A stretch of 48,948 bases of DNA. It comes from Planctomycetota bacterium (lineage in GTDB: Bacteria; Planctomycetota; Planctomycetia; Pirellulales; PLA5). Where the stretch lies: the NCBI GenBank assembly GCA_003576845.1, contig QEVJ01000077.1:1-48948 (forward strand), read 5' to 3'. The stretch's first letter is position 1. Each line of letters begins with the position of its first letter. Of this stretch, positions 17,747 to 22,428 are shown piece after piece. The notes below the pieces were generated by a model that was not told the DNA's origin, searched no databases, and saw only the letters and a program-made list of their open reading frames with translations. Position numbers and translations under genes: made by a program.

Positions 17747-19456
17747 TCAATCCCCTTTCGGCTTGTCGGCCGCGGCATCGCCGCCGGGCGGCGTTGCGGC
17801 GTCGTCCGCGTCCGGCACTTTGGCGGGGCTGGCATCGCCGGCCGGCGGAGAGGCGGCGGCTTCGCCCTGGGGTTTGAGTTGCGACTCGAACCACTGGTGC
17901 TCGGGCCGGGCGAGGATGTCGTCGATCACCTTGCGGACCGCCGTCGCCGCGTCGCCTTTCCCGTCTTTTTCCGCGTGCTCGGCCAGTTCGCGGGCCTGCG
18001 GGATCAACTGCATGTAGAACCGCTCGGCGACTTCGTACATGCCGTGCCAGTGGGCGTAGTCCGGCGCCATCATCGATGCGCCGTGGCGGGCGCGGCGGCC
18101 TTCGTGATGCCAGAGGTAGAACCACGTCCATTCGATCTCCTCGTCGAACTCCTGCGGCGTGATGAGCTTCGCGTCGCGGAGGGCGCTGATGATCTTCGTG
18201 CCCGGCTTGGCGAACTTTTCGTTGTAGTTCACCACGAAGTCGTCGTATTGCTTGTAGAACGCATCGACGTAGGGTTCGGTGTGGCAATGCGTGCACACCT
18301 GCCGCATGGCGAGCCGCTTTTCTTGCCACGTGCTCTTGATGAGCGCCGCGCGCTTCGACGGGTCGGCTTCCTTGACGACCGCGTGATTGGCGTCGGTATC
18401 CATCAGCAAACTGATCGGCGGGCGGTTGGTCCAACTGATCCGCTCGCCGGGATCGTGCGTGACGCGGCCGTTATTGCGCGAATGGCCCGACATGTGGCAC
18501 GTGGCGCAAGTCGGGGCTTGCGAATAGTCTTTGCCGAGAATCCACGTTTCGCCGTCGAGGTTCATCTTGGCGTGCAGGTCGCGATAGGCGACGCCGTGTT
18601 TCGATTCTTCGTAGATTTCCTTCTGCGGATGGTCGGGACCCAGGTGGCACTTGCCGCAGTTCTCCGGCTGGCGGGCTCGGCGGGGAGAGAAATCGTGCCG
18701 CGAGTGGCACGCCGAACACGATCCGCGCGAGCCGTCGAGATTCAAGCGGCCGATGCCCGTGTTCGGCCAGGTGGTCGAGTGCAACACGGGCTTGAGATTC
18801 GCGTCGCGCTTGATGTTGGACACGGCCGCGACGTTGGTCGGCTTGCCTTTGTCGTCGGGCTTGAGGTCGTCGAGCGTAATCAGCTTGCCGTCCTTGCCTT
18901 CAAGGGCGATTTTGCTGCCGTGGCATTGCTTGCAGCCCGTCTCGGCGCTGGCCATGCCGTTGACCATTTTGATGTCGTCGCGGCCGGGCGTCGGCGAATG
19001 AGGATTGAACGGCGCGCGGTGTCCTTCGACCGTTTCGGCGAGCAGGTTGTCGAGCGAGGCGAGAATGTTGCCGCCTTTGGCGTGGTGGCTGTTGGCGAAT
19101 TCCTCGGCTTCCTTCGGGTGACACTTCGAGCAGTCGCGAGGCGTGACGATCGTGGCGATCGTGTAGTCGTAGTGATTGAAGGCGTCCGCGTCGTTGGTCT
19201 CGGCCTGGTGGCATTCGACGCAACCGACGCCTTTTTCGGCGTGCGTGCTGCCGACCCAGTGGTCGATGATCCCCGGCGTCGTGTTCTTGTGACACTCGTA
19301 ACAGCGTTCGGACGACAACGGCACGGAAACGGGCCTTACGGCCAGTCCGGCCTCCTGCCGCTTGCGCGCGACTTCCGTGTATTGCACGAAGATCAGCGAC
19401 ACGAGGAACGCGAGTCCCAAGACCGCGATGATGGCTTGTTTGGCTTTGAGAGACAT
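17747..19456 (-). CDS. hao: Membrane-anchored octaheme cytochrome c, HAO-like
   Basis: A 569-residue multiheme cytochrome. It has exactly eight CXXCH heme sites at residues 52, 79, 109, 175, 247, 267, 317 and 388. The sequence around LWHHEGRRARHGASMMAPDY and HWHGMYEVAERF matches hydroxylamine oxidoreductase-like proteins. Residues 8-25 form an N-terminal membrane anchor (AIIAVLGLAFLVSLIFVQ) that also exports it. HAO oxidises hydroxylamine to NO or nitrite; other family members reduce nitrite or hydroxylamine. Which direction applies depends on a cross-linking tyrosine; Tyr467 in APDYAHWHG is a candidate that needs alignment. The C-terminal 50 residues are Pro/Ala/Asp-rich. It is the last gene after Rieske, cytochrome b and globin. 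Confidence 0.92.
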   Translation of the reverse strand: MSLKAKQAIIAVLGLAFLVSLIFVQYTEVARKRQEAGLAVRPVSVPLSSERCYECHKNTTPGIIDHWVGSTHAEKGVGCVECHQAETNDADAFNHYDYTIATIVTPRDCSKCHPKEAEEFANSHHAKGGNILASLDNLLAETVEGHRAPFNPHSPTPGRDDIKMVNGMASAETGCKQCHGSKIALEGKDGKLITLDDLKPDDKGKPTNVAAVSNIKRDANLKPVLHSTTWPNTGIGRLNLDGSRGSCSACHSRHDFSPRRARQPENCGKCHLGPDHPQKEIYEESKHGVAYRDLHAKMNLDGETWILGKDYSQAPTCATCHMSGHSRNNGRVTHDPGERISWTNRPPISLLMDTDANHAVVKEADPSKRAALIKSTWQEKRLAMRQVCTHCHTEPYVDAFYKQYDDFVVNYNEKFAKPGTKIISALRDAKLITPQEFDEEIEWTWFYLWHHEGRRARHGASMMAPDYAHWHGMYEVAERFYMQLIPQARELAEHAEKDGKGDAATAVRKVIDDILARPEHQWFESQLKPQGEAAASPPAGDASPAKVPDADDAATPPGGDAAADKPKGD

Positions 19457-19561
19457 GATCGAGGGTTGCGGGTCGGGGATCAGGGGTCGGGAGGTTTGAG
19501 GTTAGAGATCGGAGGTTGGAGAATCGCCCGTCCTAACCTCTAATCTCTAACCTCCAACCTC
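19457..19561. repeat. Dispersed repeat right of the octaheme gene
   Basis: A GGGTCGGGGATCAGGGGTCG stretch is followed by GAGGTTAGAGATCGGAGGTT and its near complement CTAACCTCTAATCTCTAACC. A similar element in the same order lies at 19970-20076, so the globin gene is framed by two direct copies. Confidence 0.8.
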
Positions 19562-19969
19562 TCATTTCATCACGTGTTTGTCGTAGCCTTCGAGCATGGC
19601 TTGCGAGGTCTTGTCGATGGCAGCGTGCCACTGGGCAGCGAGTTCCTTGGTCCAATCGTCGCCGTGGAACAAGGACAGCGTTTCGAGCAAGGTGTCGCGA
19701 AATTGCGGATACGTCGACGCGGGAATGCCGCGTTCGCCGTGCCGCGCGCCGAGATGCTGTAAGTAATGGTGCGTCGCCGGGTACGATCTGGTGTAATACT
19801 GCTCGATCACGACGAGCGCCATCGTCAGCAGCACGCCTTGCCGCACGAGATTCACGCCCGCGAAATACCGCTGCACCTCAGGGTATCGGCGGAAGAATAC
19901 GTCGTAAAACGTGTTGCCGAGCAACTCGCGCGACTGGAGGACCTGGTCGACGCTTTGGGTGATGGTCAT
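19562..19969 (-). CDS. Single-domain bacterial globin (flavohemoglobin-type heme domain)
   Basis: A 135-residue heme protein without a reductase domain. Compared with E. coli Hmp, Tyr22 in FYDVFF fits the B10 tyrosine, Gln44 is near the E7 place, and His77 in RHGERGIPASTYPQFRDTLL fits the proximal heme ligand (FYDRMF and KHTSFQI.. in Hmp). Globins of this type bind O2 and NO and can detoxify NO. Its position between cytochrome b and an HAO-like octaheme cytochrome suggests that it handles NO made or used by that enzyme (inference). Confidence 0.88.
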   Translation of the reverse strand: MTITQSVDQVLQSRELLGNTFYDVFFRRYPEVQRYFAGVNLVRQGVLLTMALVVIEQYYTRSYPATHHYLQHLGARHGERGIPASTYPQFRDTLLETLSLFHGDDWTKELAAQWHAAIDKTSQAMLEGYDKHVMK

Positions 19970-20076
19970 GGGACGCGGGGGTCAGGATTCGGGATTCGGG
20001 ATTCGGGGAGGCAAAGTCGGAGATTCGCGCACGTGTCATGCACTAACCTCTAACCTCCAACCTCTAACCTCTCTTC
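19970..20076. repeat. Dispersed repeat left of the globin gene start
   Basis: GGGGTCAGGATTCGGGATTC and more GGATTCGGGG units are followed by CTAACCTCTAACCTCCAACC and ACCTCTAACCTCTC. It lies between cytochrome b and globin and has the same order and orientation as 19457-19561. Confidence 0.8.
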
Positions 20077-21123
20077 TCAGTGTTCCAAGACGGCTTCCAC
20101 GACAGTCAAGCCGATGAGCAACATCGTAGCCACGATGCCGACGTAGACGCTGGCGTCGCGGTTTTTCGTGATGCGGACGAGCAACGAGTCGATCCACGGC
20201 CAGACGAACATCGCCGCGACGATGAAGCCCGTGCTGAGCACGGCAAACGTCAGCGAAAACATCTTCAGCCAGCGGAACGACACGTAGAAGAACCATTCCG
20301 GCTTGATGACTTCGGGCGTCGTTTGCGGATCGGCCTTGGGACCAAGCTCCGCGGGCAAAATCGTGGCCAGCGCGCTGAGCAACACCATCAACACCAGGCC
20401 AACGATGATCTCCGTATACAAATGGTCGGGAAAGAAATTGAAGTGGGTCGGTTTGTCGACCGGATCGTCGGCCGATCGTAGTTCCGTGACGCCGTGCAGC
20501 CGAATCAGCGAAATGTGCACGACCAGCAGCAAGATCATCGCCGCCGGCAGGATCGCCGCGTGGACAATATAGAACCGCGACAGCGTGTGCTCGTTATACG
20601 TTACGCCGCCCAAAAGCATTTCCTTGGCGATCGGTCCGACGACGGGCACGGCGTCGGATAAGTTTGAGGCCACGGTCGCGCCCCAATAGCTGAGCTGCTC
20701 GAAGACGAGGCTGTAGCCCGTAAAACCGGTCAAGAGCGACGCCATCAACAGGCACATGCCGATGAGCCAATTGACCTCGCGCGGACGGCGATAGGCGGCG
20801 GTGAAGTAGACCCGCATCTGGTGCAAGATCACGGCGGCGATCATGAACGTGGCGGCCCATTTGTGCAGGCTGCGGAAGTACCAGCCGTAGTTTACTTCTT
20901 CGGTGATGTAGCGGATCGACTCGTAAGCCGACGCCGGCGTGGCTTGATAGTAAAACGCCAGCAAGATGCCGGTGACGATCTGGACGAGAAACAGATACGC
21001 CGGCGTTCCGCCCAGGCAGAACCACCACCGCTTGAGGTGATTCGGCACCGGCTCGTTGGTCAGTTCGCGCAATTGCTCGCCGCTGACCGGGATGCGTTCG
21101 ACAATCCAAGCTTGCACGCTCAT
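20077..21123 (-). CDS. Cytochrome b of a bc/b6f-type complex
   Basis: A 348-residue integral membrane protein that oxidises quinol in a bc-type complex. The heme ligands are His87 and His101 (HKWAATFMIAAVILH) and His188 and His203; the second pair has 14 residues between, as in cytochrome b6. The C-terminal part has subunit-IV-like helices and a quinol-site PEWF at 275-278 in place of PEWY. About eight membrane helices are visible. ATG 21123 overlaps the Rieske stop (ATGA), so the two are translated together. No cytochrome c1 or f gene follows; a globin and an octaheme cytochrome do. Confidence 0.95.
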   Translation of the reverse strand: MSVQAWIVERIPVSGEQLRELTNEPVPNHLKRWWFCLGGTPAYLFLVQIVTGILLAFYYQATPASAYESIRYITEEVNYGWYFRSLHKWAATFMIAAVILHQMRVYFTAAYRRPREVNWLIGMCLLMASLLTGFTGYSLVFEQLSYWGATVASNLSDAVPVVGPIAKEMLLGGVTYNEHTLSRFYIVHAAILPAAMILLLVVHISLIRLHGVTELRSADDPVDKPTHFNFFPDHLYTEIIVGLVLMVLLSALATILPAELGPKADPQTTPEVIKPEWFFYVSFRWLKMFSLTFAVLSTGFIVAAMFVWPWIDSLLVRITKNRDASVYVGIVATMLLIGLTVVEAVLEH

Positions 21124-21713
21124 GCGCGGCCTCCTTGTCCACGATCCCGGTATTCGGCGCCTCCTTGCATGGCGGAACGGCTGCGGCACTGGGCGATACT
21201 CGGACCGGAATCCCGATCGGCCGAATTGCCGACGACTTCGAGCGGAAACTTTTTGAGGCTTTGATTGGCGGCGGCGGGTGGACCCATGAATGCTCTGCCC
21301 GTCGCATCGAACGCGCCGTTGTGGCAGGGGCAGAAGAACCGCGAGTTTTGCGGCTCCCAATGAACGCTGCATCCCAAGTGTGGACAGACGTTCGACAGCG
21401 CGACGAAATCTTCGGCCGCGTTGCCGTCGCCTTGGCGGGCAATCACCACCCGCGCGCCGCCGGGAGATTGATAGATGAGCGATTTCTCGCGGGTGATCTC
21501 GTCGACCAGCCCGGCGAATTGCCAGGCGTTCGTGTGGTCCTCGGCGGGATAGAGGTAGCGGCCGGCCATGAAGGCCAGCGTGCCGTAGCTGGCGACGAGA
21601 CCGCCGGCCATGGCGACGGTGGACGCGGCGCCGAGAAAGTCGCGGCGCGAAGCCTCGCCCTCGCCTTCCGCCCGAGTGGTTGGCGTTCGATCTGCGTGGC
21701 CCGTGTCGCTCAT
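21120..21713 (-). CDS. Rieske iron-sulfur protein
   Basis: A 197-residue protein with a twin-arginine type start (SRRDFLGAAS, residues 22-31) and a membrane anchor at about 30-55. The [2Fe-2S] cluster ligands are C110, H112, C128 and H131 in CPHLGC and CPCH, with C115 and C130 able to form the usual disulfide. It passes electrons from quinol at cytochrome b to a c-type cytochrome. Its stop overlaps the start of cytochrome b. It is the first gene of the operon that ends with the octaheme cytochrome. Confidence 0.95.
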   Translation of the reverse strand: MSDTGHADRTPTTRAEGEGEASRRDFLGAASTVAMAGGLVASYGTLAFMAGRYLYPAEDHTNAWQFAGLVDEITREKSLIYQSPGGARVVIARQGDGNAAEDFVALSNVCPHLGCSVHWEPQNSRFFCPCHNGAFDATGRAFMGPPAAANQSLKKFPLEVVGNSADRDSGPSIAQCRSRSAMQGGAEYRDRGQGGRA

Positions 21714-21987: not shown

Positions 21988-22428
21988 TTACTTGGCGACG
22001 GCCGCGTGCTCGGGTTGTTTGACCGTGAGCACGGCGCATTTCGCCCGACGAACGACGGCTTCGGCGACGCTTCCCATGAGCAGGCGCGCGACGCCGGTTC
22101 GTCCGTGGCTGCCGATGACGATCAGGTCGACGTCGTTTTCCTCGGCGAGCTCGACGATTTCATGTGCGGGTTCGCCCACCACGATTCGCCGCTCGACCGG
22201 GATACCAGCATCTTTGCCGACGAGGTTGGCGAGCATGCTGCTCAATTCCTCGACGGTTTCGAGCGGACCGACATAGGTTTCGCCGCCGCCGAAGGCCATC
22301 GGCGGTTCTTGCACGTGGACGAGCATCAACGTGGCGTTGCTCTCGCGAGCCAAGGAAACGGCCATTGCCAAGGCTGCTTCGCTGGACGGCGAGAAGTCCG
22401 TCGCAAACAGGATTTTTTTCGTCTTCAT
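21988..22428 (-). CDS. Universal stress protein (UspA family)
   Basis: A 146-residue protein. It starts KKILFATDFSPSSEAAL and has the ATP-binding motif GSHGRTGVARLLMGSVAEAV (G106, G109, G119, S120), the G-2x-G-9x-G-S pattern of ATP-binding UspA proteins. AGGTG is placed six bases before the ATG. A sigma-54-like promoter lies 76 bases upstream (22504-22519). The Rieske gene follows 274 bases downstream on the same strand, so read-through into that operon is possible but not shown. Confidence 0.95.
   Translation of the reverse strand: MKTKKILFATDFSPSSEAALAMAVSLARESNATLMLVHVQEPPMAFGGGETYVGPLETVEELSSMLANLVGKDAGIPVERRIVVGEPAHEIVELAEENDVDLIVIGSHGRTGVARLLMGSVAEAVVRRAKCAVLTVKQPEHAAVAK

Follow-up and report, generated by a model that had tools for sequence, protein, structure and literature searches.

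Two systems have been described in which a Rieske iron-sulfur protein and a cytochrome b (together R/b) are paired with an octaheme c cytochrome (OCC). In Caldithrix abyssi, genes Cabys_2558-2556 encode a Rieske protein, cytochrome b and eHao within a Nap locus, and this R/b was proposed to feed eHao either directly or via NapM (PMC5317091). In Kuenenia stuttgartiensis, the R/b-3 complex (Kuste4569-4574) co-migrates with a reductive HAO-like OCC, and reduction of nitrite to nitric oxide (NO) has been proposed for it (PMC12954380, PMC12485887). Here we describe a comparable gene unit in contig QEVJ01000077.1 of a Planctomycetota bacterium (GCA_003576845.1; Pirellulales, PLA5), of which the whole stretch of 48,948 nt analysed is referred to as the window. 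Its minus strand carries, all in one direction, genes for a Rieske protein, cytochrome b, a globin and a membrane-anchored OCC. The original prediction knew of no description of such an arrangement, but the Caldithrix and Kuenenia systems are precedents. Similar pairings were known previously in single organisms only, and a search limited to open-access PubMed Central (PMC) papers turned up none that deals with this module in either Planctomycetota or Acidobacteriota. What is new is its breadth, its association with nap genes together with the absence of NrfA, the low-potential signature of its Rieske protein, a probably separate origin from the anammox case and an optional globin. With a probability of roughly 0.55, we propose that the core is an electrogenic quinol:nitrite oxidoreductase in which the OCC takes the place of cytochrome c1 or f.

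Rieske, cytochrome b and OCC genes form a true unit whose recurrence is far beyond chance, since in the named genomes all but one of the loci with sufficient flanking sequence carry the three co-directionally. A scan of these genomes gave 413 OCC relatives, and in 72 of the best 80 the three genes lie together in the same direction; seven of the other eight loci are interrupted by contig ends and one has the OCC alone. Within the window's order (397 genomes searched), close OCC relatives with 67-81 % identity are present in about 35 genomes, with many more across the phylum, and the unit found in the window's own genus is that of the metagenome-assembled genome (MAG) OFTM264, an isolate name that agrees with the Oslofjord tunnel MAGs of PMC10732223. 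The carriers are mainly Planctomycetota, together with eight loci from Acidobacteriota. The unit also occurs in three records labelled Gemmatimonadetes and Alphaproteobacteria, which may be mislabelled MAGs, and a contig labelled Candidatus Kuenenia stuttgartiensis (L206) holds a planctomycete unit with an OCC very close to that of locus L189 and is probably another mislabelled MAG. Seven further loci encode close OCC homologues (44-57 %) without nearby R/b genes, and several of these have cleavable-looking signal peptides or a nearby tetraheme cytochrome gene; a regular-expression search for anchor versus signal peptide gave no clean split of linked from unlinked OCCs, and the contrast rests on inspected examples only.

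The third subunit of bc1 and b6f complexes, cytochrome c1 or f, is replaced in position by the OCC in nearly all loci with enough flank, and there is no c1/f gene within the unit. Each of the three other Rieske/cytochrome b pairs of the window's genome adjoins its own c-type partner, so that no spare c1/f gene was found beside the genome's other cytochromes b, whose neighbourhoods were those read for a candidate encoded elsewhere. The suggestion that the octaheme protein might stand in for c1 is thereby strengthened: it is the sole c-type partner found for this pair, and the gene order is kept across phyla.

The Rieske protein and cytochrome b have conserved features that point to a low-potential, b6-like core. 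All 80 Rieske orthologues have both the CPHLGC box and CPCH, and in 75 of them the second box reads CPCH-N-G-x-F, while the residues that raise the potential of the cluster are replaced throughout (Ser by Gly and Tyr by Phe, 80/80). The effects of these residues are summarized in PMC12954380, which gives +303 mV for the Kuste4569 Rieske protein, where Ser and Tyr are present; because both are replaced in all 80 orthologues, the Rieske protein of the unit is predicted to have a potential lower than this and suited to menaquinol. Its twin-arginine-type anchor (SRRDFLG) suggests that the Rieske domain faces outward, as the OCC probably does too. Among 86 cytochrome b orthologues, 84 have the b6-type histidine spacing (14/15) and 84 a Qo motif of the form PEWF, PEWW or PEWY, and of the 75 in which the b6 heme-c(i) position could be scored, 51 have a cysteine there.

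The OCC belongs to the HAO superfamily by its eight CXXCH motifs, its match to PF13447 and its HAO fold; NCBIfam gave it no family name. Its closest solved match by sequence is the Ignicoccus OCC 4qo5 (E-value 5e-41), to which the structural model aligns with Z 22.2 (root-mean-square deviation 4.9, 403 residues, 28 % identity), compared with Z of about 15 for HAO; octaheme nitrite reductases, NrfA and MccA appeared with Foldseek and VIA-align at Z 6-7, too weak for use. The mean predicted local distance difference test score of the model is 75 overall and at least 90 for residues 1-30, and residues 3-35 form one helix, which, with the eight motifs counted, bears out the earlier description of an N-terminally anchored octaheme protein. 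Asp267 and His268 of HAO correspond in the alignment to Asp275 and His276. In Nitrosomonas europaea HAO the cross-link tyrosine lies within GGWTY467TEGW, and a MAFFT alignment places this residue, and the HDH-like tyrosine, opposite Trp470 of the window OCC, the tyrosine being kept in the HAO-like and HDH-like sequences compared. The original prediction had asked whether the OCC's own Tyr467 is the cross-link tyrosine; it aligns with an HAO glycine, three residues from Trp470, and is not.

OCCs that lack the cross-link tyrosine are predicted to be reductive, and in one case this has been shown (PMC12758564); such proteins are considered reductive also in PMC5317091. Since its cross-link position holds Trp470, the window OCC is assigned by sequence to the reductive type (eHAO/HAOr), with a predicted nitrite/hydroxylamine reductase activity. 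The original prediction had left both directions of the nitrogen chemistry open, and of these nitrite reduction is now favoured, while oxidation of hydroxylamine or NO is disfavoured. An oxidative OCC would deliver electrons from hydroxylamine or NO to the quinone pool or to cytochromes, as its HAO superfamily membership and resemblance to HAO might suggest, but it would have to do so with tryptophan replacing the tyrosine of oxidative HAO and HDH and against the example of the OCCs just mentioned. Moreover, the transfer of electrons to menaquinone from a Rieske centre is uphill, and we regard this direction as very improbable.

The neighbourhood of the unit and the gene content of its carriers point to nitrogen oxides. 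A gene of the NapA cluster lies directly downstream in the same direction in 16 of the 89 distinct loci for which neighbouring genes were counted, in both phyla, and is often followed by a four-heme NapB-like gene; two of these NapA neighbours were compared with NCBIfam and both exceed the curated NapA cut-offs. The window itself lacks this neighbour; a separate contig of its genome carries napA-napB belonging to the same clade (72 % identity), and its congener has these genes too. NrfA was not found in the window's genome or in any of the 35 unit-carrying genomes of the order, as against 101 of the 362 others (Fisher P = 2.5e-5), and although four genera hold both NrfA and the unit, no genome in them has both. 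NirK was not found in the 70 genomes tested, the window's included. The same genome encodes two NorB-type NO reductases (on contigs C245 and C227), each roughly 800 aa long and fused to a cytochrome-c-like domain (PF22085), for which NCBIfam gave no name. Nap adjacency, the absence of NrfA, the lack of a NirK match and the two NorB-type proteins, taken together, suggest the unit as the missing nitrite reductase.

Several points weigh against such a role. NapA adjacency covers just 18 % of the loci, genome-wide co-occurrence of the unit with NapA is weak (P = 0.06), the absence of NrfA is partly phylogenetic (P = 0.06 at the level of genera) and the nitrite reductases looked for in the genome were NrfA and NirK. 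About 68 residues that HAO lacks are inserted between hemes 4 and 5 of the OCC, so that its active site may differ. The OCC might also only relay electrons, acting as a multiheme substitute for c1/f that passes them from the Rieske protein to soluble acceptors, for example NapAB, oxidases or other cytochromes, and takes no part in nitrogen chemistry. This would suit the loci in which NapA-NapB directly follows the OCC, and multiheme cytochromes do adjoin two of the three further R/b pairs in the window's genome; it fits poorly with the retention of the HAO-type Asp-His pair and fold, with the lack of an adjacent NapA in most loci and with the absence of NrfA, which suggests a nitrite-reducing role, and we consider it unlikely, if still worth serious attention. 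Alternatively, the unit could reduce some other small oxidant in place of nitrite, such as hydroxylamine, NO, sulfite or tetrathionate. OCCs are catalytically promiscuous, and Ignicoccus hospitalis, the source of the nearest solved relative, has such cytochromes in an unsettled role that has been linked to hydrogen/sulfur metabolism (PMC4429474), but the repeated nap neighbourhood and a distribution complementary to that of NrfA point to nitrogen oxides, and another substrate seems improbable.

In the quinol:nitrite oxidoreductase that we favour, the three proteins would form a complex in which menaquinol (assumed from the low-potential Rieske protein) is oxidized at the Qo site of the b6-type cytochrome b, with one electron, in the manner of other bc complexes, returning through the b hemes and the other passing to the Rieske cluster. 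From the cluster the electron would reach the membrane-anchored OCC, at once the stand-in for c1/f and the terminal enzyme, which would reduce nitrite outside the membrane at an HAO-type active heme, the product being either NO or ammonium. In some lineages NapA and the tetraheme NapB-like protein could supply the nitrite, and possibly also draw electrons from the OCC.

The globin appears to lie outside this scheme. It is present at the unit in about six of the 89 loci and is a recurring but optional companion; a constant place in the unit is ruled out by this count and by its position, which is sometimes downstream. It lies between cytochrome b and OCC in the window's genus and at two further loci (L184 and L040) and follows the OCC at L061/L192; at L200 and L228, cytochrome b and OCC are separated by a globin-like gene that is more divergent, and the OCC is followed by a second one. 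The protein has the PF00042 globin fold with a proximal histidine, conserved within an LGxxH motif of the globin alignment, and its best solved matches are entries for the Hemoglobin-like flavoprotein (3wfw, 3s1i and 3ubc) and Vitreoscilla haemoglobin (1vhb). Having no export signal in its sequence, it is assigned to the cytoplasm; the OCC and the Rieske domain, by contrast, are predicted to face outward, and the earlier inclusion of the globin in the complex is not sustained. Where present, it would probably give protection from leaked NO.

The OCCs linked to R/b genes, except the divergent L103 protein, fall into one clade (Shimodaira-Hasegawa-like approximate likelihood ratio test, SH-aLRT, 99) that is separate from soluble homologues and distant from the anammox OCCs. 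The cytochromes b of the units likewise form one clade (SH-aLRT 93), which excludes those of anammox R/b complexes and the other copies in the window's genome; joint evolution of the parts would give such a pattern. Both trees come from quick searches and have long branches, so that deep placements are provisional. An anammox OCC encoded about 3 kb from a cytochrome b gene groups with HAOr/HDH-type proteins, a long way from the clade that holds the window OCC, the genomes concerned being taken as anammox from their many OCC paralogues. Orthology of the window OCC with Kuste4574 is ruled out, the anammox OCC beside cytochrome b being a remote relative and that cytochrome b belonging to another clade. 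Because the OCC and cytochrome b clades of the unit both lie apart from their anammox counterparts, R/b complexes seem to have acquired HAO-like OCCs on two or more occasions. Two loci, L217 and L230, pair an OCC of the main clade with a cytochrome b and a Rieske protein that have diverged (54-55 % and 38 % identity, respectively), and the L217 cytochrome b groups with that of L103, suggesting swapping of the core. The window's genome contains, at C52:86000-98833, another Rieske/cytochrome b6 complex beside a 1589-residue open reading frame with eight CXXCH motifs; its cytochrome b groups with those of anammox R/b complexes, making it a relative of these in a non-anammox planctomycete. More tentatively, and at somewhat less than even odds, we suggest that the unit is a dedicated three-subunit, Q-cycle-driven and energy-conserving quinol:nitrite oxidoreductase that is widespread in Planctomycetota and Acidobacteriota, replaces NrfHA there and has an OCC subfamily recruited independently of the anammox R/b-3.

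The features of the locus are listed in Table 1. Open reading frames and Pfam matches agree with the four minus-strand genes and with the ATGA overlap of the Rieske and cytochrome b frames first reported for them. The gaps between cytochrome b and globin (about 107 bp) and between globin and OCC (about 105 bp) both hold GAGGTTA-type repeats, so that the globin gene stands between arrays; the heptamer has eight matches in the window against 0.3 expected. A single transcript probably spans all four genes. Upstream of the Rieske gene is one for a universal stress protein, and around seven other loci likewise have such a gene close to the unit; a divergent Rrf2-family regulator gene precedes the Rieske gene in about seven loci.

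Table 1. Features of the R/b-OCC locus of the window
Feature	Coordinates	Strand	Details
Universal stress protein gene	21988-22428	-	Upstream of Rieske gene
Rieske [2Fe-2S] protein, 197 aa	21120-21713	-	Twin-arginine-type anchor SRRDFLG; boxes CPHLGC and CPCHNGAFD; PF00355, 5e-12
Cytochrome b, 348 aa	20077-21123	-	b6-like N-terminal and subunit-IV-like C-terminal parts in one chain; PF00033, 1e-51; PF00032, 9e-9
Cytochrome b residues			His87/His101 and His188/His203; PEWF motif; Cys at b6 heme-c(i) position
GAGGTTA-type repeat array	20045-20071		Cytochrome b-globin gap; listed as anatomy only
Single-domain globin, 135 aa	19562-19969	-	PF00042, 1e-10; cytoplasmic by sequence; optional companion
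Inverted pair of GAGGTTA-type arrays	19491-19561		Globin-OCC gap; possible hairpin
OCC, 569 aa	17747-19456	-	Eight CXXCH; PF13447, 8e-24; N-terminal anchor, residues 3-35; Asp275/His276; Trp470

In periplasmic nitrite reduction via NrfHA, the quinol step is commonly considered non-electrogenic, and if the proposed function is correct, a bc-type core joined to a nitrite-reducing OCC would conserve energy in this reaction. It would also mean that hundreds of genomes from planctomycetes and acidobacteria have a nitrite reductase where searches for NrfA and NirK may find none, and clear candidate loci are available, including that of Acidobacteria bacterium Mor1. Like the role proposed for the unit, NrfHA is a membrane-linked, quinol-dependent system for nitrite reduction, but it is a pentaheme enzyme of another family whose NrfH operates without a Q-cycle, and no genome of the order was found with both. 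The Ignicoccus hospitalis OCC resembles that of the window in its membrane association and in extra residues between hemes 4 and 5; it has a tryptophan (DW) where the window OCC has Tyr467, and differs in its low identity (24-28 %), its archaeal origin and a valine in place of the HAO-type His268. We know of no R/b partner for it.

The Caldithrix locus, in the published description as available to us, has the same three-gene order, no c1/f gene, nap genes nearby and no cross-link tyrosine, but comes from one species and has a nap context with napM and napGH, and a wide distribution, avoidance of NrfA, a membrane anchor and a globin are not mentioned there (PMC5317091). Kuenenia R/b-3 shares the pairing of a Rieske protein and cytochrome b with a reductive HAO-like OCC, but has a separate subunit-IV-like protein, a further multiheme cytochrome and an NAD(P) oxidoreductase; no conserved NAD(P) oxidoreductase or extra multiheme neighbour of this kind was found among the gene clusters of the 89 loci. 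The two also differ in their Rieske proteins, that of R/b-3 having a high potential and that of the unit a predicted low one. The unit may serve as a simpler relative through which the anammox R/b-3 complex can be understood.

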